From contig NZ_RZTT01000004.1 in assembly GCF_003996995.1 (NCBI RefSeq), positions 1 to 42,722 on the forward strand: a DNA stretch of 42,722 nt. Direction: 5' to 3'. Positions 4,832-33,971 of this stretch are shown one piece after another. Below the pieces are notes generated by a model. It was not told where the DNA came from. It did not search any database and saw only the letters and a program-made list of their open reading frames with translations. The position numbers were made by a program, and so were the translations under genes. This stretch comes from Mesorhizobium sp. M7A.T.Ca.US.000.02.2.1. Its GTDB lineage: Bacteria > Pseudomonadota > Alphaproteobacteria > Rhizobiales > Rhizobiaceae. The stretch's first letter is position 1, and each line of letters starts with the position of its first letter.

Positions 4832-5251
4832 ATGCTGCCGGGCCTGGAGGCCGGATTTACGCTGGACGCACGGCTGGAGGCGGACAGCGAACAGTTGATG
4901 TGGCTTGGGCTGTGCGAATTGCGGGTGATGAACGACCGCCGCTGGCCATGGCTGCTGCTGGTGCCGCAGCGGCCCGGCGCGGAGGAAATCCATGACATGA
5001 CGCCACTCGACCAGGCGATGCTGACCTTCGAGACCAATATGGTGGCGCAGGCGCTGAAGAAGGCGACCGGCTGCACCAAGATCAACACCGGCGCGCTCGG
5101 CAACATCGTGCGCCAGCTGCACATCCATGTCATCGCGCGTTCGGAAGGTGATCCCGGCTGGCCAGGCCCTGTGTGGGGACATGGCCTGCGAGAGCCCTAT
5201 CAACGTTCCGACTTGCGACGGTTTGCCGAAACGATCAAGGCGGCGCTATAA
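4832..5251 (+). CDS. HIT domain nucleotide hydrolase/transferase
   Basis: Histidine-triad superfamily protein of 139 residues, likely acting on nucleotide phosphoesters in the cytoplasm. The core NTGALGNIVRQLHIHVIAR carries H97 and H99 of the triad, but the first triad position is glutamine instead of histidine; the central nucleophile position (H99) is kept. The tail WPGPVWG is characteristic of an alphaproteobacterial HIT subgroup as I recall it. The ATG at 4832 is preferred because AAGCAAGGG lies just upstream; the frame stays open to a start at 4754, but that extension is basic and unlike the family. Specific substrate unknown. Confidence 0.86.
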   Translation: MLPGLEAGFTLDARLEADSEQLMWLGLCELRVMNDRRWPWLLLVPQRPGAEEIHDMTPLDQAMLTFETNMVAQALKKATGCTKINTGALGNIVRQLHIHVIARSEGDPGWPGPVWGHGLREPYQRSDLRRFAETIKAAL

Positions 5252-5292
5252 GCGTTCCCAGTGTCCATCCCTCAACATAGCCCAGAGTCCCC

Positions 5293-7530: not shown

Positions 7531-8259
7531 TCAGGTTGAAAGGATCTGTCTGGCGCGTTCGAGGTCTTCGGGCGTGTCGACGCCGAGCGGCAGCGACTGG
7601 ACGATCTCGGCGTCGATGCGCATGCCGGCTTCCAGCGCCCGCAACTGCTCCAGCCGCTCGCGCCGTTCGAGCGGCGACGGCTTCAGCGCGACGAAACGCT
7701 CGAGTGCGTCGCGGCGATAGGCGTAGAGGCCGACATGATGGTAGAGCGGCCCCTCGCCCCAAGGCGCCGTGGCACGGGTGAAATAGAGCGCCCTCAGCCT
7801 GCTGCCCGAGAGCGGCGAGCCGACGATCTTGACGACATTGGGGTTGGTCTTTTCCTCGTCGCGGACGATCTCGACGCCGAGCGTGGCGATGTCCACCGCA
7901 CTGTCCTCGAAAGGCCTGAGCGACGCGGCGATGATCTGGGGATCGATCGTCGGCAGGTCGCCCTGCACATTGACGATGGTTTCGACCTTGCGCCCGGGGT
8001 CGAGCGCGATCAGCGCCTCGTGGATGCGGTCGGAGCCGGATTCGTGATCCGTGCGCGTCATCACGGCCTCGAAACCGCGCGCGCGCACCGCCTGCGCCAC
8101 GCTTTGCGTGTCGGTCGCCACCACCACCCGGCCAAGGCCGGCTTCGGCGGCACGGCGGGCGACATGGACGATCATCGGCGCGCCTGCGATGTCGGCCAGC
8201 GGCTTGCCCGGCAGGCGGGTCGAAGCCATGCGGGCCGGGATCAGGATCAGCGTGGACAT
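7531..8259 (-). CDS. kdsB: 3-deoxy-manno-octulosonate cytidylyltransferase
   Basis: Activates KDO with CTP to CMP-KDO for lipopolysaccharide inner-core synthesis. The 242-residue product opens with the nucleotide-binding [18 protein letters not shown] and carries QGDLPTIDP and the conserved [13 protein letters not shown] near the C-terminus. The frame is open upstream to 8763, but that extension is low-complexity and overlaps the divergent cytochrome gene; ATG 8259 gives the normal KdsB N-terminus. Upstream of pheA on the same strand. Confidence 0.96.
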
Positions 8260-8452
8260 TTCGGGTGCAAGGCGTCTCGAAAGAGGACAGGGAAAGTGGC
8301 AAAAGGTCTCACTGGAAGCGCCCTTATAGGTGTTGCAACGCCGCAGCAAAAGACCTAGTTTCCGCCCGATTTGACCGCCCTGGCAGGACGGGTCACGATA
8401 CCGACGGACGGAGTGGACGGTTCTGTCCGCCGGAAAAGGGAGCAAGGGGCGT

Positions 8453-11160: not shown

Positions 11161-13028
11161 TGGCGGCCCTTGCCCGTCGCGACTTTCTCGCCCTGGGCAG
11201 TGCCGCGGCGGCCGCCGCCCTGCTGCCAGGCCGGGCCTTCGGCGACACTGCGACCGGCACCAGGCTGCACGGCCTGTCGGCCTTCGGCGACCTCAAATAC
11301 AAACCCGATTTCGCGCATTTCGACTACGTCAATCCTGACGCCCCAAAGGGCGGCCAGATGAATTTCGCGCCGCCGAACTCGACCCTCAATCAGAGCTTCC
11401 TGACCTTCAACACCCTGAATTTCCTGGTGTTGAAGGGAGAGGCTCCGCCGCGCGCCGAACTCTGTTTCGATTCCCTGATGACAAGCGCGCTCGATGAGCC
11501 GGATGCGGCCTACGGCCTGCTCGCCGAAACCGTTACCCTGTCGCCAGACCGCAACGGTTTCCGCTTCGCCCTGCGACCGCAAGCGCGTTTCCATGACGGC
11601 TCGCCGCTGACCGCGGACGACGTTGTCTTCGCGCTGAAGCTTTATAAGGACAAGGGCCATCCGAACCTTTCCCAAGCGTTGCGGTACATGACCGACGCGG
11701 TTGCGGTCGATCCCGCCACCGTCAACCTCACTTTCAACGGCGAACAGTCAGCGCAAAACATCCTGGCGATCGTGGGGATGCCGATCGTCTCCAAGGCCTT
11801 TTATGCGGCCAATGATTTCGATGCCTCGACCATGACACCGCCGCTTGGCTCGGGTCCCTACAAGATTGGACGCGTGGCGGCCGGACAGACTGTCGAATAT
11901 GACCGCGTGGCCGACTATTGGGGCCGCGATCTGCCAGTGAACCGCGGCCTCTACAATTTCGACCGCATCCGCATCGACTTCTATCTTGACCGGCAGGCGG
12001 CGTTCGAAGCCTTCAAGAAAGGCGACACGCATTTTCGCGAGGAATTCACCTCGCGGGTATGGGCGACCGGATATGACTTTCCGGCGCTGAAGGACGGCAA
12101 GGTCGTCAAACGGGAATTTCCCGGCGAGAAGACGCCGGATATGCAGAGCGTCGCACTGAACCAGCGTCGTCCGCAATTCCGCGATGAGCGGGTGCGGCGG
12201 GCGATCGCCAGGTGCTTCGATTTCGAATGGATGAAGCGGGCGCTGTTTTACGGCTCCTACGAGCGTTCTCAATCGAACTTCGAACGGTCGGATTACAAGG
12301 CCGAAGGCCTGCCCTCGCCTGAAGAATTGACCCTGCTGGAGCCGTTCCGGGCCGAATTGCCGCCAGAGGTTTTCGGTGAAGCGGTGACGCAGCCCCTTTC
12401 CGACGGTTCGGGCCATGACCGCAAGCTGCTGGGCGAGGCTTCGAGATTGCTTGCGCAGGCCGGCTGGAAGCGCGATGGCAGTTTCGTCGTCAACGACAAG
12501 GGTGAGCGGCTGCGGGTCGAAATGCTGGCGGAGGACGACGGCATCGTTCGCATCTACACCCCTTGGTCCGAGAATATGAAGGCGATCGGGATCGACGCAT
12601 CGATCCGGCAAATCGATTCGGCGCAGTATGAGCAGCGGCACAGCAATTACGACTTCGATCTTGCCTTGCTGCATTGGTCGATCGGGGCGACGCCGACCGA
12701 CGACAGCCTGCAGATGCTCTATGATTCCCGAATGGCGAAAATCCCGGGGCAGCGCAACTATCCGGGCACGGAAAGCAAGGCCATCGACGCCCTGATCGCG
12801 GCAGCCGGCAAGGCGAAAGACCGTGTAGAACTCGTCACGGCGCTCAGAGCGCTCGACCGGGTCTTGCGCGCGCGCCTCGACTGGATTCCAACATACTATC
12901 TGGCGAATCACCGCGTCGCCTATTGGGACATGTTCGGCTTTGTCGAACAGAAGCCCGATTTCGGCTTTCCGGTCGAGACGCTGTGGTGGTTCGATAAGGG
13001 CAAGGCGGCAAAAATTGGCAAAGGCTGA
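11160..13028 (+). CDS. yejA2: Peptide ABC transporter substrate-binding protein, Tat-type signal
   Basis: Second SBP_bac_5 protein of the yej operon, 622 residues, homologous along its length to YejA1 (FDYVNPDAPKGGQMNFAPP; LRPQARFHDGSPLTADDVVFALKLY). The N-terminus ARRDFLALGS followed by an Ala-rich stretch and PGRAFG is a twin-arginine signal, so this copy may be exported folded, unlike its Sec-type neighbour. The ATG overlaps the yejA1 stop by one base. The frame is open upstream into yejA1, but that would lose the signal peptide. Two binding proteins on one permease suggest split ligand ranges. Confidence 0.92.
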   Translation: MAALARRDFLALGSAAAAAALLPGRAFGDTATGTRLHGLSAFGDLKYKPDFAHFDYVNPDAPKGGQMNFAPPNSTLNQSFLTFNTLNFLVLKGEAPPRAELCFDSLMTSALDEPDAAYGLLAETVTLSPDRNGFRFALRPQARFHDGSPLTADDVVFALKLYKDKGHPNLSQALRYMTDAVAVDPATVNLTFNGEQSAQNILAIVGMPIVSKAFYAANDFDASTMTPPLGSGPYKIGRVAAGQTVEYDRVADYWGRDLPVNRGLYNFDRIRIDFYLDRQAAFEAFKKGDTHFREEFTSRVWATGYDFPALKDGKVVKREFPGEKTPDMQSVALNQRRPQFRDERVRRAIARCFDFEWMKRALFYGSYERSQSNFERSDYKAEGLPSPEELTLLEPFRAELPPEVFGEAVTQPLSDGSGHDRKLLGEASRLLAQAGWKRDGSFVVNDKGERLRVEMLAEDDGIVRIYTPWSENMKAIGIDASIRQIDSAQYEQRHSNYDFDLALLHWSIGATPTDDSLQMLYDSRMAKIPGQRNYPGTESKAIDALIAAAGKAKDRVELVTALRALDRVLRARLDWIPTYYLANHRVAYWDMFGFVEQKPDFGFPVETLWWFDKGKAAKIGKG

Positions 13029-23681: not shown

Positions 23682-23757
23682 GCCGCTTTAGCTCAGTTGG
23701 TAGAGCACCGCATTCGTAATGCGGGGGTCGCGTGTTCGAGTCACGCAAGCGGCACCA
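23682..23757 (+). tRNA. tRNA-Thr (anticodon CGT)
   Basis: A 76-nt cloverleaf with encoded CCA. The acceptor GCCGCTT pairs with AAGCGGC; the D arm holds GCTCAGTTGGTAGAGC; the anticodon stem CCGCA/TGCGG holds CGT at 23715-23717; the T arm is GCGTG-TTCGAGT-CACGC. CGT reads ACG threonine codons. The gene is the integration target of the downstream element: its last 48 bases are duplicated at 33792-33839, so the present 3' half was supplied or restored by the element. Confidence 0.97.
23710..23757 (+). repeat. attL, left 48-bp direct repeat
   Basis: Runs from the anticodon stem (GCATTCGTAATGC) to the CCA end of tRNA-Thr. It is identical over 48 bases to 33792-33839; the bases just outside differ at both sides, so 48 bp is the exact repeat length. 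Anticodon-loop crossover is typical for tyrosine integrases that use tRNA genes. Confidence 0.95.
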
Positions 23758-24007
23758 AAAACTCCCAATAATTAGAATCGCTTGCGCCGGGTTTCAGCCG
23801 GGCGGACTTATTTGGGTCTAGGCCCAAATAACAGAAAGTGCCCAGCGCTTGACCTCCGGAGGGTTTCGATGTCAGATGATGTCAGTTCTCCAGCCACCTA
23901 AAGCTGGCGCACCCCGTGCACGGGTGCACTCCTCGACTACAGCGCGGACCTGCATGCGGTCCGTCGCGGAAGCGCCCTCGTTCTAAGAGCGCGCATGGAG
24001 AACGATC
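23758..24007. other. Left-end non-coding region rich in inverted repeats
   Basis: No gene is evident in these 250 bases. They hold TTATTTGGG-TCTAGG-CCCAAATAA (23808-23831), a tandem GATGTCAG pair near 23870, a near-perfect palindrome around GTGCAC (23909-23927), and CGGACC-N7-GGTCCG (23945-23963). Possible roles are integrase or Xis arm sites next to attL, an operator, or a structured leader of the 24008 gene. Confidence 0.5.
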
Positions 24008-24412
24008 ATGACGTTGGATTTGCAAAAAAAGGAATTCCATAAAGCTTTGGTCAAAGCTGATAGGGAAGCACGCGACTTGCCTGGCTACACCGGTCATGTG
24101 TTTCGCAAGATGATAGCAGGCCACGGCGGCTGGAAAGCCGCCAAGCTTATGCTTCAGCCTATGTCCAGGGGCAAAGTGCAAGATGGCTTTGTCGAACTAT
24201 GGATGTGCGGTGGGATTGAACTCACCGTGGAATCCATCATCCTCGAACCTAAGTGGTATGAACTGTTCACCCGGGATGATCGAAGAGAGGCGTACCGTAG
24301 GCTCTCATCGGTCGGATGTGAGATAGAGCGCGAGCTGACCCCACACAAAGTGCGGTACATCGTGCTGCAATATAGCCGCCCGCTTCGGCCGCTACCCTCG
24401 CCTATAGCGTGA
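24008..24412 (+). CDS. Unknown 134-aa protein, lone plus-strand gene of the element
   Basis: A soluble, basic 134-residue protein with no signal peptide or membrane helix. Recognisable segments are HVFRKMIAGHGGWKAAKLML, then GFVELWMCGGIELTVESIIL, and LFTRDDRREAYRRLSSVGCE. This looks like a compact helical domain I associate with scattered stand-alone proteins in bacterial genomes and mobile elements, but I cannot name a function. GGAG (23997-24000) lies 7 bases before ATG 24008. It is the only element gene on the plus strand and converges on the membrane gene at 24480, which suggests an independently regulated cargo gene. Confidence 0.75.
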   Translation: MTLDLQKKEFHKALVKADREARDLPGYTGHVFRKMIAGHGGWKAAKLMLQPMSRGKVQDGFVELWMCGGIELTVESIILEPKWYELFTRDDRREAYRRLSSVGCEIERELTPHKVRYIVLQYSRPLRPLPSPIA

Positions 24413-24461
24413 GCGCCATAGCGCGTCGCCACAAGTGTGCGGGCGGCGCGGATAACGCTTG

Positions 24462-24501
24462 GAGGGGCGGCGGTGGGAGTTACCTGCCGCCCGCGCCCCT
24501 C
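24462..24501. terminator. GC-rich hairpin between convergent genes
   Basis: GAGGGGC (24462-24468)/GCCCCTC (24495-24501) and inner GGCGG (24469-24473)/CCGCC (24487-24491), with a 3-base bulge. It spans the stop codon of the minus-strand membrane gene. There is no T-run, so termination is a guess from position. Confidence 0.4.
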
Positions 24502-25094
24502 TTCGGAAGTATTTTTGGGTCTTTATAATACAATCTATCTATTAGGTAGTACAGCCCATGGAAGCTTGAGATAATCATATGAGATATGATTAGCGATACA
24601 GATATCTTAATCAGCGACGACGAGATGGTCGAGCACCAATACGGGTCTACCTGATGTTCCTGCATTTTTTTAATGAAGTAAGATGCTATGGAACTGTACA
24701 CCGCAACCATCAAAATCGATAAAACAGAAATAAATAGCGAAGAAAATGCTAAGTATCCAAACATAGCGCAGACATACTCGCGACGGCTAAGGCTAGTCCC
24801 CCCTGCCGTCAATGACACCTTTCCTACAGTGATCTTCTTGTCTACATCGTCAGATGAGAATGTCGCCACGGTCACAAGGGCCGCTACATAGAAACCTGTT
24901 AGGATCGACGAAAAGCTTCCAACTCGATCTAGAAATCCCTTCTCGCCGAAATAATTAGTGCCGTCAAATACCACAAATGGCGCCGTAATTATCAAAGCAA
25001 TTATCACAACTGTCCAAGCGTCCCGCCTGACAAGCCTGCGGCCCTTTTCATCTACTAGGATCAGGTATCTTAGTGGACTAAGGATTGGGTTCAT
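24480..25094 (-). CDS. Four-helix membrane protein, candidate effector of a RexB/KwaA-like pair
   Basis: A 204-residue inner-membrane protein with four predicted helices at about 26-45 (AWTVVIIALIITAPFVVFDG), 58-80, 106-139 and 157-185, and short polar loops. No enzymatic motif is seen. The ATG at 25094 is one base from the stop of the 345-aa gene upstream, so translation is coupled. Size, helix count and position after a soluble partner resemble lambda RexB (four helices) and also KwaA of Kiwa, but I see no decisive sequence identity to either. Composition is AT-rich against neighbours (24541-24600: 22 of 60 G+C), a sign of recent acquisition. Confidence 0.8.
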   Translation of the reverse strand: MNPILSPLRYLILVDEKGRRLVRRDAWTVVIIALIITAPFVVFDGTNYFGEKGFLDRVGSFSSILTGFYVAALVTVATFSSDDVDKKITVGKVSLTAGGTSLSRREYVCAMFGYLAFSSLFISVLSILMVAVYSSIASYFIKKMQEHQVDPYWCSTISSSLIKISVSLIISHMIISSFHGLYYLIDRLYYKDPKILPKRGAGGR

Positions 25095-25095
25095 C

Positions 25096-26133
25096 TCAAA
25101 CAGCCATCAAGGCGAGCGCTTTTTCGGCGATTTCGTTCACGATTTGATCTGAACAGACGCGCACGGCTTTTTTAAGATGCACCTGCTCGGAGCGGACGAA
25201 GAGTATCTCCTTCGCCTCATGTTCGCGATCCAGCGTCACCGTTCGCTTCCGCTTGTCGCCCAAATCAATCTCGATGTTGAAGTCCTGCCACCCTTCCTTC
25301 TTGCCCCACTCAACCAGATTTTTGAACGTGGCCGCCCAGTTCTTCTTATCGATTTCGCCCTTAATCCGGATTTTCATGACCTCGTTGATCGGCTCGAAAA
25401 TTCCTGCACCGTCAACAAAGTCAACCTCTGCAGGACGCACCAAGGTGATGAAGTTCATATGGCCTTCCTCAAGCGCGCCCGCAATCGTTTCCGATTTAAC
25501 ACCCTCTGCTTTGAAAACGCAGTAGGTCTCCTCTACCTCGCCGTTTTTTGTCTCGAAGTCGTATTTGTACTCAAACAGTGCCGCTGCGATCACCAATCGG
25601 AGAATTCCCATGCTCATGCCTGGAATTTCCTCGAGCACAGCCCTATACCGCCCTTCGGCGACGGGCACTGTGTTTATCACAAGGTGGGCCGAAACAGACT
25701 GTTCCTCGCCTTCCTCCTTTACCGAATCGCGGATCGTCACCTTCGCCCGTGCTTTCTTACGATATGCGGGGTCGGCAGCGTCAGGGCTGGCTTTGTGAAA
25801 CAACATTACGATCGCGTTTTGCTTAGGCCAATGTTCGATAGTCATCAACTCGATGATGTCGTGGTTCGGCTGGACTTCGAGGGCAGCTTGCTCCTGGATC
25901 CTTGTTTCCAGTGCGTCGAATAGACTGACTTCATTCTCGTCTGCAATCAGCGGAAGGCGAATAGCTGCCTTGTGTCGGGGATTCAGGGTGAATTCGTATT
26001 GACGGAAGAACCGCGAGTGCTTTTCAAGAAACAAATTTCCCTCCCCATTGTCCAGCGATACAGGGCCGCCAGGACACTTTAGGGAGTAGATGGTCAAATG
26101 TTCCCGCTTTTGTCTACTGGTAAGACCTCGCAC
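25096..26133 (-). CDS. Soluble 345-aa protein, RexA-like candidate sensor
   Basis: No named domain is certain. The 345-residue product begins LTIYSLKCPGGPVSLD, then FRQYEFTLNPRHKAAIRLPL and SLFDALETRIQEQAALE. The middle contains EGRYRAVLEEIPGMSMGIL and FITLVRPAEVDFVDGAGIFE, and it ends with MKIRIKGEIDKKNW and a helical QIVNEIAEKALALM. The layout (N-terminal barrel-like part, acidic middle, closing basic-strand and helix region) recalls lambda RexA, a DNA-binding exclusion protein. This is a pattern-level resemblance only; a DUF4868/KwaB-type protein is an alternative. The start is a GTG at 26133 without a strong Shine-Dalgarno, 22 bases after the upstream stop. One base separates it from the membrane gene. 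Confidence 0.8.
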   Translation of the reverse strand: MRGLTSRQKREHLTIYSLKCPGGPVSLDNGEGNLFLEKHSRFFRQYEFTLNPRHKAAIRLPLIADENEVSLFDALETRIQEQAALEVQPNHDIIELMTIEHWPKQNAIVMLFHKASPDAADPAYRKKARAKVTIRDSVKEEGEEQSVSAHLVINTVPVAEGRYRAVLEEIPGMSMGILRLVIAAALFEYKYDFETKNGEVEETYCVFKAEGVKSETIAGALEEGHMNFITLVRPAEVDFVDGAGIFEPINEVMKIRIKGEIDKKNWAATFKNLVEWGKKEGWQDFNIEIDLGDKRKRTVTLDREHEAKEILFVRSEQVHLKKAVRVCSDQIVNEIAEKALALMAV

Positions 26134-26155
26134 GGGATGGTTATGAGCTTTGTTT

Positions 26156-26731
26156 TTACCGCCGCGCCTTCAGCCCCGACTGCAATTGGCTGAAATGGCC
26201 GCCGGTGGGGGCAGCGCGCCTTTCCAGATAGGCTGCCCCTTCGGCCTGCACGAACTCTTGGACCAGTGCGTCGACCGTTAACAACCCGCGCTCAGTCCTG
26301 GCATGGACGACTCGCTCTTTCTTTCGGCCATCGGTCTCGCCGACCTCGAAATCATTTCGGTCCTGCAACAGGTCCATGGCGCCCTCGATCAGCCCCTGTT
26401 TCACGCCAGCTTTTGCGAGCGAATGATAGAGCGTCATATGGACGGCGTGGTCGCGTGACGCCTGCTTTTCAGCCGCCACCATCTTAGGCCCGTCAACCTT
26501 CAGCCTTTCCAGCTGCGCGTTGAGCGCCGCAAGTTCTGCAAGTGCTTCGGTGCAGTAGTTGGCGGCAGCGACACACAGGATGAAGTCATAGCCCTTGCAA
26601 TCGTCGTCGTCCTCGTCAACCGCTCGGTAGGCGATGCGATACTCCTCCGGGACCGACGCAATGTCGGTTTTGGTGAGCTTCATGCGTAGGCGAAGGCCTT
26701 CCTTGATGTAGATGCTGATTGGACTAGCCAT
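26156..26731 (-). CDS. Unknown 191-aa element protein
   Basis: Not recognised. The 191-residue protein is soluble and acidic in its first half (AVDEDDDDCKGYDF), with a long helical central segment (about 50-110: ALAELAALNAQLERLKVDG, possible coiled coil) and a basic C-terminal tail ending in LKARR. Helical content and position beside another helical protein suggest a complex with the 247-aa product upstream. ATG 26731 lies 3 bases from the upstream stop, with AGGAGG 8 bases before it, so strong coupled translation is expected. Part of the element operon running from 28850 to 24480. Confidence 0.72.
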   Translation of the reverse strand: MASPISIYIKEGLRLRMKLTKTDIASVPEEYRIAYRAVDEDDDDCKGYDFILCVAAANYCTEALAELAALNAQLERLKVDGPKMVAAEKQASRDHAVHMTLYHSLAKAGVKQGLIEGAMDLLQDRNDFEVGETDGRKKERVVHARTERGLLTVDALVQEFVQAEGAAYLERRAAPTGGHFSQLQSGLKARR

Positions 26732-26734
26732 GGC

Positions 26735-27478
26735 TCATGCCTCCTGTTGCTGATGGGCCGACAACACCGCTTCGCGCTTCGAACGGGCAGCGATTGCGGC
26801 ATTGGCGAAGGTGGTGTCGCCCGCCTGCTGCACGAGTTTGATGAATGCTCCACCGCCCACATCAGACGCGGCGCGCATTTTCTTCAAGCGCTCCAGACGG
26901 CGCATCTCGCCCGGAAAGTGCTGGGTGCGGAACCTGTGGCGAAGGGATTCCAATTCCGCCGCCTTCATGCCCGTGGTGACTCGTGGCGCGCGCAGCACCG
27001 CACCGATGAGCGCCATATCGTTGCTAACAAGAGCGTCATTGATCTCCTTGGCGAGTTCATCGGGAGTCAGTGCCTTCAGCGACGCCCGAATCTCTTGATC
27101 GTATCGCTCCCCAATCGTGGCGTCCGGTGGAGGCGCAAACGTCACCTTCTCAAGCGACGCTATCGTCGTATCAACCTTCTCCTGAGCGGCGAGCAAGCGG
27201 GCCGCGACACGCTCGCCACTTTTGCGCGCCGCACTAGCCACTTGGATCGCGGCGGCAGCGGGCGTCTGCGACCCGTCCCCGTACACAGTCTCAGCAAGAG
27301 CGACCAGAGCGTGGGCCTCCTCGCGAGCTACCTTCATCGCTCCCGATAGGGCGACATGCTCCAGGTCGGGTTCAGGCTTGTCGTTGCCGCGCTGCTTCTC
27401 GGCAAAATGGTCAATCGCCAGCTCATTGATTGATGGGCTGACGTGCAGTTTCAGTTCTTGTTCGGCAACGGTTGCCAT
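26735..27478 (-). CDS. Unknown 247-aa helical element protein
   Basis: Not recognised. From ATG 27478 the product is 247 residues, highly helical, Ala/Glu/Lys-rich, without membrane helices. It includes VASAARKSGERVAARLLAAQ, LKALTPDELAKEINDAL and a basic RHRFRTQHFPGEMRRLERLKKM segment near the C-terminus that could bind nucleic acid or a partner. AAGGAG lies about 7 bases before the chosen ATG; the frame is open to 27496, but that extension lies upstream of the ribosome site. It sits 14 bases after the 122-aa gene and 3 bases before the next gene. Confidence 0.72.
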   Translation of the reverse strand: MATVAEQELKLHVSPSINELAIDHFAEKQRGNDKPEPDLEHVALSGAMKVAREEAHALVALAETVYGDGSQTPAAAAIQVASAARKSGERVAARLLAAQEKVDTTIASLEKVTFAPPPDATIGERYDQEIRASLKALTPDELAKEINDALVSNDMALIGAVLRAPRVTTGMKAAELESLRHRFRTQHFPGEMRRLERLKKMRAASDVGGGAFIKLVQQAGDTTFANAAIAARSKREAVLSAHQQQEA

Positions 27479-27492
27479 GTGATTTCTCCTTC

Positions 27493-27861
27493 TCAAAAAC
27501 GTCTATTTTCAAGCACCAAAAGGCCGATCGGCACCCGTGCTACAGAGGCATCGATGGTGATGTAGTCGCCGGCCTTGGTCTGCTTGCGGCGCTCAGCGAG
27601 CAGCACGCGGGCCACGCCATTTTCAGTTCCCAGATAGCCGCCTTTCAGCCCGTCTACCGAGACTCGCTCGCCCGTCTCAAAAGACGGGCTTTGGACGACG
27701 ATCAACCCGCTCGCGTCCTTGGTGAATCCAGTGAAGCGTCCATTGCCATCAGGACGAATTAGGCGGGCGTCTGTGCCGCCGATGGGGTTGCCTGAAAAAC
27801 CCAGAACGACGTATTTGACGCCGGTGGTGATGGCTACGATATCGCCAATCGCTGCGGTCAT
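27493..27861 (-). CDS. Unknown 122-aa beta-rich element protein
   Basis: Not recognised by name. The 122 residues alternate short hydrophobic strands: IGDIVAITTGVKYVVLGF, then FETGERVSVDGLKGGYLG and GVARVLLAERRK. This is an SH3-like or small beta-barrel pattern. It shares GD-V...VV...F.G.R..V.G with the preceding 135-aa product, so the two look like distant paralogues in tandem. Its ATG overlaps the upstream stop by one base (TGATG). Soluble, no signal peptide. A structural or nucleic-acid-binding role is conceivable but unproven. Confidence 0.7.
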   Translation of the reverse strand: MTAAIGDIVAITTGVKYVVLGFSGNPIGGTDARLIRPDGNGRFTGFTKDASGLIVVQSPSFETGERVSVDGLKGGYLGTENGVARVLLAERRKQTKAGDYITIDASVARVPIGLLVLENRRF

Positions 27862-28268
27862 CAGATTGCCCCCTCTGTGAGCGTCGTCATCTCTGCCATC
27901 TCAAAGGACATCGGCTTCCTGCGGTGCACGAGCAGGGACGCTTGCCACCGCCACAGGGCGGTGAACGACTGGTCCTGCATACGGAGGAACACGAAGAGCG
28001 GCGTAGCGCTGTGCACCTCAACCCGCTCGCCCTCGACTATGAACCGTTGGCCCTTCTCGAAAGCGGGGCCGGTGCGCCAGCCCATGTAAACGTCATCCTC
28101 GGATTGCATCGTGGCGACGAGATCAATGTCCCCGTCCGCGTTCGTTTCATCACGGATCATGAACACGTGTCTGCCGTCGCCGAGACAGGGGAACATGCCA
28201 TCGGGGACGACATTGGCGACGACCCACGTCTTGCCGGAATTGCCTTTGACGTAATCACCAATGCGCAT
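27861..28268 (-). CDS. Unknown 135-aa beta-rich element protein
   Basis: Not recognised by name. The 135-residue product starts MRIGDYVKGNSGKTWVVANV and contains FEKGQRFIVEGERVEVHSA, then LFVFLRMQDQSFTALWRW, with mostly beta character. Spacing of GD-V, VV and F-KGQRF-V-G matches the adjacent 122-aa protein. It starts 3 bases after the 192-aa gene stop, and its own stop overlaps the next start, so it belongs to the same transcript. No catalytic residues stand out. Confidence 0.7.
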   Translation of the reverse strand: MRIGDYVKGNSGKTWVVANVVPDGMFPCLGDGRHVFMIRDETNADGDIDLVATMQSEDDVYMGWRTGPAFEKGQRFIVEGERVEVHSATPLFVFLRMQDQSFTALWRWQASLLVHRRKPMSFEMAEMTTLTEGAI

Positions 28269-28271
28269 TGT

Positions 28272-28850
28272 TCATCGCCTCGAATAATCGATCTCGTGGA
28301 ATGGGCGATCACGAGGACTGGGATCTGTGGCCGATGGCCCGTAACCCCTGCCCAGGCACTTCTCCATGAGCATCTTCATCTCTCTCGCATCGGTCTCCGA
28401 CAGGCCCCCCACTCCGACCTCGCCCACCTTGTGGTTCAGGAGCTTGAGGCGCTGCTGTTCGTCGTGGGTGAGCTTACTGATGTCGTACGTCTGCATGCCA
28501 TTGCTCGGCGCTTCGACGCGATCCAGCCCAAGTGTCTCGTAGGTGCGCCGGAGGCTGTTCATGACACTCAGGTACGCGAGCAGTTCCGGCAGGCTGGCTG
28601 TGCTTGCCTTCGCAAATTCAAGCTCCCATTGCTCAAGGACGATGGTCGCGTTGGCGGCGCTCTTGATCAGAATGAACTGGCTTTGCGTGACGTTGCTGGG
28701 TCCGCCTAGGTCAGCAACATGATTGGCAACTAGGTCATGCAGCCGCTTGGCCCACTTGGTGCGCCCGTCCATGCCTGCAAGCAGTGTCTTGCCGTTGGTG
28801 ACCCTGCTTCTGCCTTTGCGCTTGCGGGGGACCGGATAATAGGCGTCCAT
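28272..28850 (-). CDS. Unknown 192-aa protein heading the element operon
   Basis: First gene of the long minus-strand operon. The 192-residue soluble protein has a basic N-terminus (VPRKRKGRSRVTNGKTLLAG) and helices including WAKRLHDLVANHVADLGG and LPELLAYLSVMNSLRRTYETLGL, then a flexible C-terminus. I recall similar proteins, with an RSRVTNG...DGR...DLGG pattern, in rhizobial prophages and islands, but no function is assigned; a small-terminase-like role is possible but unsupported. ATG 28850 has a weak Shine-Dalgarno. The promoter-operator region at 28899-28939 lies just upstream. Confidence 0.72.
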   Translation of the reverse strand: MDAYYPVPRKRKGRSRVTNGKTLLAGMDGRTKWAKRLHDLVANHVADLGGPSNVTQSQFILIKSAANATIVLEQWELEFAKASTASLPELLAYLSVMNSLRRTYETLGLDRVEAPSNGMQTYDISKLTHDEQQRLKLLNHKVGEVGVGGLSETDAREMKMLMEKCLGRGYGPSATDPSPRDRPFHEIDYSRR

Positions 28851-28898
28851 TGGGCGTCCAATATGTATCTGCTATGTGCTTTTGCTTCAAATCAACTG

Positions 28899-28939
28899 GT
28901 AAAGCTAACAGTATATTAGCTGCTTTGATGCGTAAAGCT
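28899..28939 (-). promoter_or_regulatory. Candidate promoter with paired operator repeats for the element operon
   Basis: On the minus strand CTTTAC (28932-28937) and TATACT (28910-28915) are 16 bases apart and resemble sigma-70 hexamers. GTAAAGCT occurs on the plus strand at 28899-28906 and 28932-28939, 33 bases apart, about three helical turns. The second copy covers the -35. The IR AGCTAA/TTAGCT (28903-28908, 28916-28921) surrounds the -10. This is a layout expected for repressor control. Confidence 0.5.
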
Positions 28940-29142
28940 GAACGTTTACAGCGCGTTATGATGGCTTTTGTTTTAGCAATAAGGAAAATCGACTAGAAGA
29001 GCGGCCTTTGGGGACTGGCGTCGAAGGACGCTGGCGCTACGCATGCGGTGCGAAGCTGGGGCGCAAATAAATACGGCCCTCGCTCGGAATTCGTGATCTC
29101 CCGGCTTTTCAGCCGGATTAGCAGGGTTGACGCGCACTTGCT

Positions 29143-29259
29143 GTGCCGGGGGTGCCGGGGACTTTCCGATCAATAACACGTAAGGGGAAGTTTTTTTGCA
29201 GCGCGCAGCGCAACGCTAGTAGGGGAAGCTTTTGGGCAATTCCCCGGCACCCCCGGCAC
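29143..29259. repeat. Perfect 19-bp inverted repeats downstream of the primase
   Basis: GTGCCGGGGGTGCCGGGGA at 29143-29161 is exactly reverse-complemented at 29241-29259, 79 bases apart. Between them GGGGAAG occurs at 29184-29190 and 29222-29228. GGGGACTTT-NN-GATC occurs at 29157-29171 and 29268-29282. Could be a replication origin, a replication-control site or a long stem at the end of the primase transcript. Confidence 0.6.
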
Positions 29260-29261
29260 CC

Positions 29262-31538
29262 CTAGAAGGGGACTTTGGGATCGATCATCTCGTCCGGAGG
29301 CATCTCACCTGAGTCCCGGAACACCATCGCCGCTTGATTTGGCGTCAGCTTGCCGCCAGTCGGAACCATCTCCGTTAGCGTGATCCCGGCATAGTGGGGA
29401 GTGTGCTGACCGCCCACGCGCGGTTTGCTGGCCTTGATGCCCAATTGCAGCGCGTACAAGTCAGCTCCGATGGTCTCATCTGCCATGACATGGTGGTTTC
29501 GATCTCTCAGCCACTCATTCAACTCCATGTTGAACAGCTTCTTGCTGACTGCATAGCTGGACCCGACGGTGCACATTTCCTCGACAAACCGTTTCACCGG
29601 GCCGGTGTTCTCATCCATCAAGTCGAGCAGTTCTTGGCCTGAATCAGGCTGCTCAAAACGTCCTCGCGCTCGCAGCCGCTTCAGTCCTTCGATCCAGACG
29701 TTGATGATGCCCGGTAGTTCGGCCAGCAGCTCGGATGTGAGATTTGGGTTCTCGCGCCCATAAAACGACTCCCGGAACTCGATCACAATGAACCGCGTCA
29801 CGATGACACCGGATGCGTCTTTCAGCTTCGGGACTGTGTTCGCCATAAGGATGATGCGCGTGCTCAGCACACCGTTCCACCGCGACTTGTACTTGCGGCT
29901 GATTGAAACCGGGTCCTCACCTGTGATGGTCAGGATGTTCTCAACAGCCGCATGAGGGTTTGATCGCCCCTGTCCACGTGCGTCGGATATGACGGCCAGC
30001 GACTTGCCGACCAAGTTTTCCATACCAAAAGATTCGCTGAAGTCCGACAGCTTGGGATTGGCATATCTGCCCGCGCCTACCGCCGCCCGCGACACGCGCC
30101 CAATGGTGCCTTTACCTGAGCGCTTCTCGCCGATGAAGGCGAAGGCCTTCTGCTGCGACGTGTCGCCGGTCAGGCAGTACCCCATGATCTCCTCGATGCA
30201 CTCGATGGACTTGGGGTCATCAGGAAATGCGTTGTGCATGAAGCTTGCCCATACAGGCGCTGCCGCTGCGACGTCATAGTTGCAGTCAACCCCATGTAGA
30301 GCGAAGAAGCGCTGCTGTGGCGGATGCAGCGTGTATGTCCGCAAGTCGAGAGTGCCGTTCTTGAAGGGCAGCATGTCAGCGGGCGAGGGGTCGCCAGCCT
30401 TGGCGTCGATCCAGAATGGCGCTTCATCGATATTGGGCAGCTGTCGGATGCCCGCAAGCGCGGCGAGGATGTCGCCAACTGCATTGCGCGTTGACTTGAA
30501 TGGAACAGGCTTACCTTTATCCAGTACCCTGATCGTCTCAAGCCACGGATAGAGCCGCCCCCGAAGCTCCTCGTCATCCATCTGGACCCACCAGCTTCCA
30601 GCCCAGCGGTAAAAGTCACCCCGCCAATGCCAGACATCATCCAGCGTTTTTGCGAATTGGCGCGCGATGAAGATAGGCTCGGAACTTGGGAAGATGCCAC
30701 GTTCATCCTCGGGGCGCATATCGACCCATGAGCGCAGCGTGTCAGGGTTGATGTTGAGCGACTCAGCAAGCTTCGGGATGCCGGTGCACGCCCTTCCACC
30801 GCCAAGTCGTTTCACCGTAGCTTCGACACGCCTCATGGACTTGTCTATCGCGCGCTGGTCGTCACCGCACTTGGTTGCCACTTTGTGGATCAGCTTTTTG
30901 ACTTCCGCCTCCGTCCAACCGTGCGTTAGCAGAGCGCCAGGCACGCGAAGGCCCAGGACATTGCGCAAGCCCTCCTGCCAGTGCCGCATTATCAGGGAGG
31001 CGAGGGCGAGACACCGCACGCACTGAAGGAGGAACTCACCTTCTATCTCAAAAGGCTGGCCCTCCTCGGACCAACTGAGCCGTTCGCCGCAGGGATGGAC
31101 GGACGGCGGAAACATTGTCTGCCCACCAGTTGAGCGGAGCTCGACCAGCATCCCGTCCTTCTTGCCATTGTAGGTGAAGGGCACAGTGGCGGGGACAACC
31201 GCCCTGTAGAGCCGGTGCGCCTCCGGCGTAGCGGGACGGCCAAACCGTGCCGGAGTTGGCGGCAGAAACTCTTCGGCGAGCGCTATTGCCTCAGCGCTGT
31301 CGAGATCAATGTCTACGAGATTGCCTGATGGCGCCCCAAGCAGCACGCCAACGTTTGAACTGTTGCCGGTGAAGGCTCTATCGACATCGACCTTGTCGAG
31401 CGTCTTCTTCTGCCAGTTCTTTTCGAGCGGCGCCTTAGTCTGATGCTGGTAGGCGATCGGCACCCATCCGACACCCATGTACCTGCGTGCCAATGATCGG
31501 GTGCCATCAATATCGATTGTATCTGGTCGTGGTGCCAT
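29262..31538 (-). CDS. PrimPol-D5 primase-helicase (phage/plasmid replication protein)
   Basis: Likely replication initiator of the element, combining primer synthesis and helicase activity. From ATG 31538 it has 758 residues. The N-terminal primase-polymerase domain (about 15-190) shows the acidic motif NLVDIDLDS and the later PPSVHP histidine motif. A helical linker follows (WTEAEVKKLIHKVATKCGDD), then a D5-type N domain with VWHWRGDFYRWAG. The SF3/AAA+ helicase has Walker A GEKRSGKGT (about 470-478). A TTG at 31547 is an alternative start. It follows the 84-aa gene by about 120 bases. Such proteins drive P4-like satellites and some plasmids. Confidence 0.9.
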   Translation of the reverse strand: MAPRPDTIDIDGTRSLARRYMGVGWVPIAYQHQTKAPLEKNWQKKTLDKVDVDRAFTGNSSNVGVLLGAPSGNLVDIDLDSAEAIALAEEFLPPTPARFGRPATPEAHRLYRAVVPATVPFTYNGKKDGMLVELRSTGGQTMFPPSVHPCGERLSWSEEGQPFEIEGEFLLQCVRCLALASLIMRHWQEGLRNVLGLRVPGALLTHGWTEAEVKKLIHKVATKCGDDQRAIDKSMRRVEATVKRLGGGRACTGIPKLAESLNINPDTLRSWVDMRPEDERGIFPSSEPIFIARQFAKTLDDVWHWRGDFYRWAGSWWVQMDDEELRGRLYPWLETIRVLDKGKPVPFKSTRNAVGDILAALAGIRQLPNIDEAPFWIDAKAGDPSPADMLPFKNGTLDLRTYTLHPPQQRFFALHGVDCNYDVAAAAPVWASFMHNAFPDDPKSIECIEEIMGYCLTGDTSQQKAFAFIGEKRSGKGTIGRVSRAAVGAGRYANPKLSDFSESFGMENLVGKSLAVISDARGQGRSNPHAAVENILTITGEDPVSISRKYKSRWNGVLSTRIILMANTVPKLKDASGVIVTRFIVIEFRESFYGRENPNLTSELLAELPGIINVWIEGLKRLRARGRFEQPDSGQELLDLMDENTGPVKRFVEEMCTVGSSYAVSKKLFNMELNEWLRDRNHHVMADETIGADLYALQLGIKASKPRVGGQHTPHYAGITLTEMVPTGGKLTPNQAAMVFRDSGEMPPDEMIDPKVPF

Positions 31539-31661
31539 AGCCGCCAAGCCCTTGTTTTATCAGGATTTTGCGGGTATATTGGGAGTTGATCCCAGGGTCG
31601 ATTTCCGCACGACACCCTTGGTTCTCTTTCAATGCCAGTTCCATCTTGGCGCCGGTCCTGC

Positions 31662-31916
31662 TCACACAGGGCCGGCGTCTTCTTGTTCAACGCAATTGCG
31701 CATCAGGTTGCCGATATAGCTCTCAAAGTTGACCGGCGCTCGTCTTGGCGGGAAACGGTGGACCTTCTCGAGCACCGTTTTCCTGAATTCGCTCTGAGTC
31801 ATCAGTTGATGGGTGGTCAGCACACAGTGCCTGCCGTTGAACACAAACGACCACATCACCTTCTTGCCGCCTGTGTGCTTGACCAGTTGCGGGATGAAGA
31901 ACTCGTCTTCGTCCAT
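31662..31916 (-). CDS. Unknown 84-aa protein between AlpA and primase
   Basis: A small 84-residue soluble protein with MDEDEFFIPQLVKHTGGKK, a WSFVFNGRHCVLTTHQLM beta-helix segment and SEFRKTVLEKVHRFPPRRAP near the end. No family is recognised. The ATG at 31916 shares one base with the stop of the AlpA-like gene (TAATG), which argues for translation from here. A longer frame to 32066 would overlap the AlpA gene and lacks a good start. Position suggests a helper for replication or regulation. Confidence 0.65.
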   Translation of the reverse strand: MDEDEFFIPQLVKHTGGKKVMWSFVFNGRHCVLTTHQLMTQSEFRKTVLEKVHRFPPRRAPVNFESYIGNLMRNCVEQEDAGPV

Positions 31917-32182
31917 TACGCCACCGCGCCATATTCGCGGGTCGAACGGTACTCGGCTCTCTCCTTGAGCCAAACGCGAAGCGCATCGCGTCGATAACGG
32001 ATGTTGCGGGGACCTATCCGAATGAAAGGAGGGCCGTAGCCTTTCGAACGGCTGATCTCGACCCATTGGACACTGACGCCCAGAAGTTTCGCAGTCTGTG
32101 CCGTATTCAGGAGATCATCGCCGTCGCTGATTGTTTCAGCTATGGCGTCAGCGCGCCTATCGAGATGCCGGTTTACGTCCAT
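31916..32182 (-). CDS. AlpA/excisionase-like helix-turn-helix protein
   Basis: An 88-residue DNA-binding protein with a MerR/AlpA-type winged helix: LLNTAQTAKLLGVSVQWVEI, then GPPFIRIGPRNIRYRRDALRVW. In P4-like elements and PICIs, AlpA-type proteins activate or aid excision and regulate the int and replication genes. GGAG lies about 9 bases before ATG 32182. It heads the three-gene set AlpA-84aa-primase and is separated from the integrase by a terminator and a candidate promoter. Whether it acts as Xis, activator or both cannot be decided here. Confidence 0.85.
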   Translation of the reverse strand: MDVNRHLDRRADAIAETISDGDDLLNTAQTAKLLGVSVQWVEISRSKGYGPPFIRIGPRNIRYRRDALRVWLKERAEYRSTREYGAVA

Positions 32183-32216
32183 GTTCGGTTTCTCCGAAAT
32201 GGCACGCGGGGCTTAG

Positions 32217-32262
32217 CAAAAAAAAGCCCTCGCGCGCATGTTGCACACGAGGGGGCTTTCGT
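32217..32262 (-). terminator. Rho-independent terminator of the integrase gene
   Basis: On the minus strand the stem formed by AAGCCCCCTCG and CGAGGGCTT, with a loop of about 18 bases, is followed by TTTTTTTT. It lies between the integrase stop (32387) and the AlpA start (32182), insulating the two units. Confidence 0.85.
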
Positions 32263-32340
32263 TTGGTTTGGACCGTATGTACGGGCACGGTCCCGAAATG
32301 CTCCCGTGCCGCCCCAGCGGGCGGCCTACGGACTTACAAC
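32263..32340. other. GC-rich hairpin pair between integrase and AlpA
   Basis: GGGCACGG/CCGTGCC around 32283-32312 and GCCGCC/GGCGGC around 32310-32328 can form two adjacent stems. They lie in the expected 5' leader of the AlpA-primase transcript. Function unknown: leader structure or small RNA. Confidence 0.4.
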
Positions 32341-32344
32341 CGTA

Positions 32345-32373
32345 TAATTAGCACGCCCAATAAAACCCACAAG
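32345..32373 (-). promoter_or_regulatory. Candidate promoter of the AlpA-primase operon
   Basis: Minus-strand CTTGTG (32368-32373), 17-base spacer, TAATTA (32345-32350). Its transcript would cross the integrase terminator stem, so transcription of alpA from here would need antitermination or readthrough; a closer promoter may exist. Confidence 0.35.
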
Positions 32374-32386
32374 CGGAACGTTTGCG

Positions 32387-33607
32387 TCAGCCTATCGCGA
32401 CGACGTTCGCGTCCTCAATCGGAACGATTCCGCATAGCGTTTTTAGCCGATCAGCGACCTTCTGCGCCGGGCTACGAAGACGCTCTACCCTCATCTGCAC
32501 ATAACCCTCTGTGACGTCATTTCCCAGCGAGTGGTTGACCAGTGCCTTGAGCGCCATGGGGCTGATTTCCGTTTCCTCAGCTACGGTGATGAAGGTGCGC
32601 CGCAAGTCGTGCACCGACACTTGGACGCCACAGGCCTTGGCGACGGCATCGAGAGGAAATTTCGGCTCTGCGATATAGCCTGTCTTCTTTCCGTGCGAGG
32701 GGAACACGTAGTCGTTGGGATCTTTTCCAACCGCGCGCCGCGCCACTAGCAGATCCCGAACGAAGTCCGACATCGGCAGATCAAGCTTCCGCTTTGCCTT
32801 GGTGTTGATGGCTGGGATGTGAAGCAGCTTTTTGTCGAAATCGACATACGCCCATTTCAACATTGCGGCTTCGCGTCGGCGCAACCCTGTGAAGAGAATG
32901 AAGCGTAGGTAGTCGGCTGCAACCGGGTTGGGCAAAGCGCAGACGGCCTTGTAGAAGACAGGCATGTCGTCGGCCTCAACCATTCGTTCGCGCCGCTCTT
33001 CAGCAAACCACTGCTTCCGTAAGCGGACAGGATTTTGCGGAAGTGTCGGATCTTGGTCCGCTGCGAAATTCCAGAGAAGACGAAGAATGGCCATCGTCGT
33101 GTTAGCAGTCACCTCGCCCTTCCAGCGATTTGACAGCGCGATCTTCTGGGCAATCTCGCCGTGGCGCTTTTCCACGGCATCGCGGGTGATGAAGTTGAGT
33201 GGCTTGTCCAGCCAGGATGTCAGATGGTTCTCCACCTTGTCCTTATAGTTCGAGACAGTGTTGGCGCTCAGTTTCGCGTCATACTTTTTCAAGTACGCAT
33301 CCAGCGCTCCTTGCAGCGTCATTGACCGCGCCTTGGGATCCTTTCCCTTGCGAAGGTCAACTAGCATGTCGGCAGCTTCCTCGCGTGCCTTAGACAGGGC
33401 CATTTCGTTGACAGCCGCCACCGTAACGCGACGTGTCTTTCCGTCGGGAAGTGTGCGCTGTGCGATAAACGTTTTGGTGCTGGTCACGCCCGAGCAGAGG
33501 ACGCCAAAACCTTTCAGATCTGCATCCCAGTGAAGCACCTGCTTCCCCGATGGATCGGGGGCAAGTAGCTTCTCGATGGTACGTTCCGTGAGCTTGATAC
33601 GCGGCAA
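32387..33607 (-). CDS. int: Tyrosine-type site-specific integrase
   Basis: Phage-type integrase catalysing recombination at tRNA-Thr. From a TTG start at 33607 it has 406 residues: an N-terminal DUF4102-like arm-binding domain (about 1-95, LPRIKLTERTIEKLLAPD and GFGVLCSGVTSTKTF), a core-binding SAM-like domain (about 100-185), and a catalytic domain with Arg in FTGLRRREAAML (about 242), HDLRR (about 335) and nucleophile Tyr in VTEGYVQM (about 370). AGGAG is 6-7 bases before the TTG; the open frame to 33646 lacks such a site. It reads inward from attR and ends before its own terminator. Confidence 0.95.
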   Translation of the reverse strand: MPRIKLTERTIEKLLAPDPSGKQVLHWDADLKGFGVLCSGVTSTKTFIAQRTLPDGKTRRVTVAAVNEMALSKAREEAADMLVDLRKGKDPKARSMTLQGALDAYLKKYDAKLSANTVSNYKDKVENHLTSWLDKPLNFITRDAVEKRHGEIAQKIALSNRWKGEVTANTTMAILRLLWNFAADQDPTLPQNPVRLRKQWFAEERRERMVEADDMPVFYKAVCALPNPVAADYLRFILFTGLRRREAAMLKWAYVDFDKKLLHIPAINTKAKRKLDLPMSDFVRDLLVARRAVGKDPNDYVFPSHGKKTGYIAEPKFPLDAVAKACGVQVSVHDLRRTFITVAEETEISPMALKALVNHSLGNDVTEGYVQMRVERLRSPAQKVADRLKTLCGIVPIEDANVVAIG

Positions 33608-33971
33608 GATACTCTCCTGACTGGTTGGGCCTAGAGCGGGAAGCAAATAAGGAAAACCACCTTAGTTGCACCACCCTAGGTTGTTTTACAATCAGGGGAC
33701 GTTATAACGCTTTCGCCATAAAATATAGCGAAATCAATAGATTGACCCGTTGCGCGCCTTATTTTTAAAGCACGCTATTCGTGTATGGACAGCATTCGTA
33801 ATGCGGGGGTCGCGTGTTCGAGTCACGCAAGCGGCACCATTTCTCCCTTCGTTTCGTCGTCTACCCCTTCTCATCTGGCGCAAAGGATTGCGGCGCCGGC
33901 TTGGCAGATCTGCCATTGTCGAGACCCCGGTTTGGTGTGAAACTCATGGCCTCAGCACGGGAGGTCAAAAA
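33608..33971. other. Integrase upstream region, attR and chromosomal junction
   Basis: No gene is seen in these 364 bases. On the element side there is an AT-rich stretch with TTTCGC (33711-33716) and its inverted copy GCGAAA (33728-33733), a plausible integrase promoter/operator or arm site. attR is at 33792-33839. Chromosomal DNA follows, leading to GGGAGG before the next gene. Confidence 0.5.
33792..33839 (+). repeat. attR, right 48-bp direct repeat (tRNA-Thr 3' fragment)
   Basis: Exact copy of 23710-23757, without the 5' part of the tRNA, so it is not a functional tRNA gene. It marks the right boundary of the element; the sequence beyond returns to chromosomal composition. Confidence 0.95.

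Follow-up and report, generated by a model that had tools for sequence, protein, structure and literature searches.

A probable PICI-like phage satellite in Mesorhizobium with a small-terminase homologue and a probable head-scaffold homologue

Several families of phage satellites have been described, and those closest to the element treated here were compared using passages from PMC6092414, PMC8628076, PMC10803314, PMC5644958, PMC11389934 and PMC10690885. According to these passages, some phage-inducible chromosomal islands (PICIs) carry a small terminase (PMC6092414); SaPI1 has a small scaffold, CpmB, that acts against the scaffold of its helper (PMC6092414, PMC5644958); phage-inducible chromosomal minimalist islands (PICMIs) are described as being without capsid-remodelling genes (PMC10803314); and capsid-forming PICIs (cfPICIs) are defined by a major capsid protein, a protease, a portal and connectors of their own (PMC10690885). 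Here we analyse a 42,722-nt stretch of DNA from Mesorhizobium sp. M7A.T.Ca.US.000.02.2.1 (contig NZ_RZTT01000004.1, positions 1 to 42,722; hereafter the window), which holds an integrated element of 10,082 bp at positions 23758-33839. This element is probably a tRNA-integrated, PICI-like phage satellite, whose own small terminase (TerS) would select the DNA and whose own scaffold would reshape the capsid of a helper phage. Since it has a DNA-loading protein and a scaffold relative of its own and no shell protein, it likely borrows the shell of the helper.

The element is delimited by a 51-bp direct repeat (23707-23757 and 33789-33839, 98% identical) associated with a tRNA gene:

23682-23757, plus strand: intact tRNA-Thr(CGT) gene, the integration target, with the attL core at 23707-23757 (ARAGORN; 51-bp repeat with 33789-33839)
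33789-33839, plus strand: attR, a partial copy of the end of the tRNA-Thr gene (51-bp repeat; empty site in G591)

Joined together, the two flanks match G591:C1:740819-741315 with 484 of 500 positions identical (positions 2-500, 97% across the junction), and this segment is an empty integration site. The junction is also spanned in genomes G662 (84%) and G622 (82%). At G402:C33:256901-259458 the flanks of the same tRNA-Thr site lie about 2.1 kb apart, indicating another, shorter insertion or a divergent stretch. GC content is 56.4% in the element and 63.7% in the remainder of the window. An earlier interpretation made from the letters alone (the sequence-only reading) had recognised a satellite-like core at 26156-33607. 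That range lies inside the element and covers about three quarters of it; the true span is larger and includes three further genes (24008-26133).

The center of interest is a five-gene operon (26156-28850), which the sequence-only reading had delineated correctly:

28272-28850, minus strand: g4, TerS homologue with a C-terminal extension (synteny with the large terminase, TerL)
27861-28268, minus strand: g5, conserved operon protein (tblastn in relatives; dN/dS, the ratio of nonsynonymous to synonymous substitution rates, 0.14)
27493-27861, minus strand: g6, conserved operon protein, with two copies in locus L046 (present in relatives; dN/dS 0.23)
26735-27478, minus strand: g7, conserved helical protein (8 of 8 other islands; AlphaFold model confidence, pLDDT, 80)
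26156-26731, minus strand: g8, probable shortened homologue of phage head-scaffolding proteins (profile comparisons)

Scans with Pfam (all 12 proteins of the element), PHROGs (10 of 12) and NCBIfam (10 of 12) recognised no capsid, portal, tail, large-terminase, lysis, relaxase or secretion family, in line with what had been noted from the letters. The accompanying description of a core "without packaging genes" does not hold: g4 is homologous to small terminases, and g8 is probably a relative of head scaffolds.

Gene order identifies g4 as a homologue of small terminases. Relatives of g4 occur at 12 loci outside the TerL-less Mesorhizobium islands (L020-L029, L047 and L049). TerL lies directly downstream of the g4 relative at 8 of the 12, one gene further on in L025 and 6 kb further on in L024; no TerL is found within 20 kb in L022, nor in L028 within the 3.5 kb before the contig ends. 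In the two Mesorhizobium islands of this set, L047 and L049, TerL is placed between g4 and g5 (phrog_2, 1.1e-22 and 2.1e-19). In the reverse direction, the g4 profile was run, at an E value of 0.01 or better, over 34 viral contigs that had been collected on the basis of TerL only. The profile recognises a gene in 16 of them, and in 14 the g4-type gene overlaps TerL or stops at most 130 bp before it, while the g5, g7 and g8 profiles match nothing in the same contigs at E 0.01. The length of g4 is 184-197 aa in the six Mesorhizobium islands without TerL, as compared to 128-137 aa in the two with TerL; the extra C-terminal part of g4 goes with the absence of TerL. Terminase homology in the unknown operon genes had been named by the sequence-only reading as a finding that would speak against a satellite. 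Such homology is what g4 provides, to the letter, yet it favours a satellite because, as stated in a passage of PMC6092414, some PICIs carry a small terminase.

At the other end of the operon, g8 is likely homologous to phage head-scaffolding proteins. Nine members of the g8 family were compared to PHROGs: five match phrog_206, two phrog_2303 and one phrog_172, all head-scaffolding families, with E values that are weak throughout (best 0.0034, 0.0018 and 0.0079, respectively). Other matches of the g8 family are to a pilot protein (phrog_8693, 0.0092) and to two families of no assigned function. A phage-scaffold profile was made from seven proteins, namely three Pelagibacter scaffolds and that of PaMx28 (annotated as scaffolding) and three homologues (annotated as structural or hypothetical). 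Profile searches were run over 477 open reading frames (ORFs) of at least 60 aa from nine islands, and this profile places g8 homologues at ranks 1-8 (best E 1.7e-4), with the window g8 at rank 8 (E 2) and the L043 g8 not listed. The g8 profile, in turn, gives six matches over 297 genomes of the family: its own, G402, G734, G783, G159 and G179. The G734 match is part of a full block (L086), the one in G783 (L088) is a short frame next to tRNA-Lys, where no further block gene was called, and the one in G159 is an ORF dropped by the gene caller (L100). The G179 match is a prophage gene located between the portal and major head genes and itself assigned to head scaffolding (phrog_206, 5.3e-23). 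Against 1005 ORFs of phage-type loci, the g8 profile ranks the G179 gene first (3.8e-6), followed by the PaMx28 scaffold (2e-4), the L100 ORF (3.2e-4) and a Pelagibacter scaffold (0.0096).

Matches to phrog_206 were found in 50 of 144 genomes of the genus. Those in G705, G604 and G594 are the only ones at 1e-19 or better; the remaining matches range from 1.6e-5 to 1e-3, and nearly all come from the coil part of ORFs about 457-468 aa long. Since phrog_206 can thus match through a coil alone, the scaffold homology of g8 was retested without the coil. Used as a query, the last 100 aa of the G179 protein place g8 homologues at ranks 1-7 of the 477 ORFs (best 1.4e-5; window g8 3.0e-4), and a profile of the g8 C-terminal part ranks the G179 scaffold first (6e-5) and the L100 ORF second (1.9e-4). 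As judged from these comparisons, both regions of the phage scaffold proteins, coil and C-terminal domain, are retained in g8, which has 177-194 aa as against 234-284 aa in the phage scaffolds.

A number of results weigh against these assignments. For g4, no TerS PHROG was matched among 17 family members, and the structural model (pLDDT 61) is too weak for comparison and gave no fold match; family profile searches with g4 (Pfam, PHROGs) returned nothing informative. For g8, in addition to the coil-borne matches just described, the best PHROG comparison of the window protein taken singly is weak (E 0.0034). A second scaffold profile (A10, four sequences) is non-significant (best 0.019, with g8 at ranks 1-3 and other proteins at ranks 4 and 7), as is the C-terminal A9 profile (best 0.34), and hhalign gives weak values (P 0.0033 and 0.0053, probability below 10%). 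Searching phages by tblastn yielded no match for the window g8; with the L047 g8, three records were obtained, and the best of them, which lacks significance (E 0.3), is a scaffold gene. Finally, scans of IMG/VR with g4, g7 and g8 revealed no relative.

To assess conservation, the window element was compared with 20-kb regions around nine Mesorhizobium g7 matches. The g7 search was positive in 9 of 145 other Mesorhizobium genomes, the g4 search in 10 of 198 other genomes of the family sample and the g8 search in 1 of 396 other genomes of the order sample. The block is present at eight of the nine g7 loci; the ninth, L050, combines a weak g7 match (E 1.9e-7, 24%) with no other block gene and was dropped. 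Islands related to the element are found in eight further Mesorhizobium genomes and also in three other genera within the family; tRNA genes of six kinds serve as their sites. The Mesorhizobium relatives sit at tRNA-Thr(CGT), Arg(CCT), Gln(CTG) and Lys(CTT), and those of the other genera at tRNA-Glu (L021), tRNA-Arg (L086) and tRNA-Gly (L087). By tblastn or blastp, g7 is present in all eight other Mesorhizobium islands, g4 in seven (not L048), g5 in six (not L032 or L048), g6 in seven (not L044; in L048 it occupies two frames) and g8 in seven, to which L049 is added by position. The g4-g8 order is constant wherever the genes occur, and the gaps concern single genes. Because the integrase and replication genes vary between islands while g4-g8 persists, the g4-g8 operon is the stable unit. 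Four of the islands recur, each with identical block genes, in the records of Mesorhizobium sp. N.Ca.IN.012.02.1, M7A.F.Ca.US.008.03.1.1, WSM4306 and M2E.F.Ca.ET.219.01.1.1; the island of WSM4306 (L043/L053) has this operon at a tRNA gene of the same kind as in the window.

Conservation bears on the possibility that the element is a defective prophage which has lost its structural genes and is decaying. The terminase- and scaffold-type genes are phage-derived, and the wider family includes islands with some structural genes, which speaks for this explanation. We nonetheless consider it very unlikely. All genes of the element are open, and dN/dS values (0.14-0.26 for g4-g8, 0.12 for the primase and 0.11 for the integrase) are those of genes evolving under selection. 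Furthermore, the same reduced gene set and the 10-kb size recur across several genera and tRNA sites, and the element has its own replication module, with swap partners.

A peculiarity of the islands is their uniform length. The size count comprises the 11 islands in which g7 is clear and att repeats are present (8 of the 9 Mesorhizobium islands, window included, together with L021, L086 and L087); L048, in which no att repeat, integrase or g4 was found, was omitted. Lengths range between 9,692 and 10,338 bp, with a mean of 10,032 and a standard deviation of 222. As the DNA that blast aligns between pairs of islands varies from 0 to 5.3 kb, recent copying alone does not account for the constant size. 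The four TerL-carrying islands of the count (L021, L047, L049 and L087) still fit the range. The constant size of about 10 kb is most simply explained by a capsid-imposed limit, and g8 would be the scaffold that sets it.

Yet L021 (9,854 bp) and L087 (10,012 bp) have g7 and a terminase pair with no recognised g8, so that size may not depend on g8; the TerS of L087 belongs to another family (phrog_309). It also speaks against a common limit that L023, left out of the count for its weak g7-like gene (2e-4), measures 16,826 bp. It is the one examined, as G193, among the 10 of 15 g7-profile matches that are weak (9.6e-5 or worse). Islands without g7 in the stretch measure 13,257 bp (L022) and 15,843 bp (L025); no att repeat was found in L020 and L026, and L029 has a 15-bp repeat only. 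An alternative is that the element is a satellite in which g8 does not set size and instead blocks the helper scaffold or has some other role, the 10 kb resulting from unit-length packaging or from a shell whose size depends on g7 or on the helper. L021 and L087 are in favor of this alternative, as is the shortness of g8 relative to phage scaffolds; against it, g8 retains both parts of the phage proteins, coil and C-terminal domain. On balance we find it unlikely and prefer g8 as a size-setting scaffold.

Structural genes were seen in or near a few related loci. L046 has a major tail protein gene between the primase and g4 (11708-12181; phrog_158, 2.7e-17); in no other island of the set was such a gene seen. 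About 3 kb beyond the attR side of the L047 island is a major head protein gene (2854-3936; phrog_10, 4.6e-71), which perhaps belongs to another phage or satellite inserted alongside at this site; a weak DzbB match (0.0072) lies at 5045-5599, also outside that island. A broader set of integrative elements that have the same TerS-TerL pair (L023, L026, L027, L110, L128 and L020) includes a tail tape-measure gene by PHROGs. In their gene lists, of which a part was scanned, no portal was seen, nor, by eye, a capsid gene in L023, L026, L027, L110 and L128; L020 additionally has a head protease and a major head gene. Possibly, these elements are satellites that bring tail rather than head parts.

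As to the remaining operon genes, g7 follows TerL in L021 and L087. From a good model, its best fold-search E values are 0.41 in BFVD and 0.16 in PDB, with none at 0.001, and no match to g7 was found in phages.

Integration, regulation and replication are attributed to the following genes and sites:

32387-33607, minus strand: tyrosine integrase with a TTG start (Pfam PF00589 Phage_integrase, 1.2e-14; PF13356 Arm-DNA-bind_3, 3.9e-10)
31916-32182, minus strand: AlpA/excisionase-like helix-turn-helix (HTH) protein (HTH_17, 1.8e-7)
31662-31916, minus strand: 84-aa protein, its start overlapping the stop of the HTH gene (no Pfam family)
29262-31547, minus strand: PrimPol-D5 replication protein (Prim-Pol, 8.1e-14; DUF5906, 2.5e-12; D5_N, 1e-4; TIGR01613, 168 bits)
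29143-29259, no strand assigned: inverted repeat beside the primase stop codon (25-nt arms, 92% complementary)
29058-29103, minus strand: noncoding block upstream of g4, common to islands with differing replication genes (sequence matching)

Pfam and NCBIfam thus bear out the order integrase, AlpA-type HTH protein, small protein and PrimPol-D5 that had been read from the letters. The integrase is 75% identical in L043, the only island with high identity, and 32% in L049; the HTH protein is 73% and 47% identical in the same two islands. The AlpA model itself does not match the HTH protein in the Pfam scan, and this protein would be a regulator or excision factor. By tblastn the 84-aa protein resembles two stretches of L032 (45% and 32%), at 6867-7052 and 8170-8370, which lie near the replication gene, one of them within the replication ORF; it may be a replication accessory domain. 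Among the Mesorhizobium islands compared, PrimPol-D5 has homologues in L047 (88.5%) and L044 (67%) and in no other.

An inverted repeat within the 280-315 bases after the replication gene outscores all 30 single-base shuffles in six of eight islands; by this test L032 and L049 have none. The sequence of the repeat tracks the type of replication gene, being of one kind with PrimPol (window, L044 and L047) and of others in L043, L045 and L046. Its position and co-variation suggest that the window repeat is origin-like. The first 34 bases of the 29058-29103 block have 24-26 matches in four of the five other TerL-less Mesorhizobium islands, with best matches of 19-21 in L046 and 11 other loci. The block is, weakly, a candidate packaging or control site. 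Immediately before g4, the segment 28851-29057 is alike in the window and L043, which have the integrase and HTH gene in common, and is of another type in L032, L044, L045 and L047. The operon control region seems to follow the regulator.

The attL side of the element is occupied by three genes:

25096-26133, minus strand: g9, candidate anti-phage protein PDC-M53A (PADLOC, 8.8e-13; phrog_16499, 9.5e-9)
24480-25094, minus strand: g10, candidate anti-phage membrane protein PDC-M53B (PADLOC, 1.4e-27; phrog_8257, 8.6e-21)
24008-24412, plus strand: g11, next to attL (in the L043 island, a protein at the corresponding end is 75% identical)

No family was found for g11 (Pfam, PHROGs, PADLOC, NCBIfam). 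Eight proteins inside other islands were scanned with PADLOC: two are defence matches, AbiTii in L044 (1.5e-39) and PDC-S31 in L046 (3.7e-9), and six gave nothing; two further L047 proteins scanned lie outside the island and are not counted as cargo. Hijacking or immunity functions had been suggested for the five operon genes. The first part agrees with g4 and g8, which resemble hijacking genes, while the candidate immunity genes, g9 and g10, lie outside the block.

Since three islands (window, L044 and L046) have defence genes, candidate or known, the element could also be an integrative element that conjugation mobilises in trans and that carries anti-phage cargo, its terminase- and scaffold-like proteins acting as decoys against phages. 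We deem this extremely unlikely. No relaxase or coupling gene was recognised in the element proteins (Pfam, NCBIfam), and no similar DNA exists in 72,556 plasmid records; conjugative mobilisation was rejected on these grounds. The joint presence of TerS and TerL in two Mesorhizobium islands and the constant size also argue against it.

No helper phage was found in the genome of origin or in the IMG/VR scans, and this too counts against a satellite. The TerL type of the islands occurs in 10 of 50,697 phage records, all below 30% identity, and a search for it in the genome of origin, made without a positive control, gave no match. Two TerL-type matches, one in a gene of about 600 aa, lie on short contigs of that genome. 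These contigs, L057 (G000:C85) and L058 (G000:C37), have terminase-type genes, in one case also an integrase, and are possible prophages and helper candidates. There is no phrog_206 match in this genome.

Altogether, a satellite life cycle can be envisaged as follows. When a helper phage is active, the AlpA-like protein and the integrase, as their families suggest, would excise the element, and PrimPol-D5 would replicate it, with the inverted repeat next to the PrimPol-D5 gene as the starting site. The g4-g8 operon would then redirect the helper: g4, a homologue of small terminases with a C-terminal extra part, would pick satellite DNA and pass it to the large terminase of the helper, in place of which two sister islands have one of their own. 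The g8 protein would compete with the helper scaffold for the helper coat protein, yielding a shell with room for about 10 kb of DNA, and g5, g6 and g7 would serve the same takeover. A candidate system, g9-g10, may protect the host from other phages.

A broader proposal, to which we assign nearly even chances, is that of an undescribed satellite family of the Rhizobiaceae, defined by a transferable hijacking operon, TerS-(TerL)-g5-g6-g7-scaffold, rather than by integrase or primase. Its members would have their own versions of the two proteins deciding which DNA is packed and how large the shell is, and the helper would supply tail, portal and coat protein; the small shell would hold the genome at 10.0 kb, and loss of TerL would have gone with a C-terminal extension of TerS docking to a foreign large terminase. 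If true, satellites that have a hijacking operon of their own occur widely in the Rhizobiaceae and carry anti-phage genes there. The short TerS with TerL and the extended TerS without it would form a natural series for the switch from an own to a stolen packaging motor, and a scaffold homologue in a constant-size satellite would make the determinant of genome length testable by a single gene deletion. A literature search on satellites and PICIs in rhizobia, limited to titles and with subscription journals and bioRxiv largely outside its scope, found no title about a rhizobial satellite.

Compared with known families, as far as the passages cited at the outset describe them, the element is closest to PICIs and SaPIs. 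Shared features are the module in the order integrase, HTH regulator and primase, an origin-like repeat beside the primase, an own TerS, the absence of capsid, portal or tail, and cargo at the end. PICIs may carry terS and capsid-size genes, to which the TerS homologue g4 and the probable scaffold homologue g8 would correspond; g8 resembles phage scaffolds of the phrog_206 type, and SaPI1 CpmB is known here by description alone. Unlike PICIs, the element measures 10.0 kb rather than 12-15 kb, its g5-g7 and its type of TerS have no known counterpart in the libraries used, and some sister islands carry TerL.

With P4-like satellites the element has in common an integrase, an AlpA-like protein, the C-terminal domain of the P4 primase family (TIGR01613) and a size of about 10 kb; it differs in having TerS and an internal-scaffold type gene. 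A P4-like satellite was rejected because none of Psu (PF07455), Delta (PF04606), Epsilon (PF10554), Alpha (PF03288) and AlpA (PF05930) is present by Pfam among the 12 proteins. With PICMIs it shares an integrase, an HTH_17 protein and a DUF5906 primase; it differs, from what the passage on PICMIs says, in its TerS and scaffold homologues, and this assignment was rejected since DUF3987 is absent and the site is a tRNA-Thr gene, not next to fis. Like cfPICIs it is an integrative element with packaging genes, and that family, as defined in the passage used, was rejected because Pfam, PHROGs and NCBIfam recognise no major capsid, protease, portal or connector of its own. The satellite likeness seen by the sequence-only reading is therefore upheld on the PICI side (tRNA att site, integrase/HTH/primase module, empty site, related islands of constant size, no recognised capsid, portal, tail or conjugation gene) and, as far as the markers examined show, not on the P4 side. 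Since the P4, PICMI and cfPICI features tested are absent and the size differs from that of PICIs, we call the element PICI-like and not a PICI proper; it apparently belongs to an undescribed family, set apart from the known ones by their descriptions.

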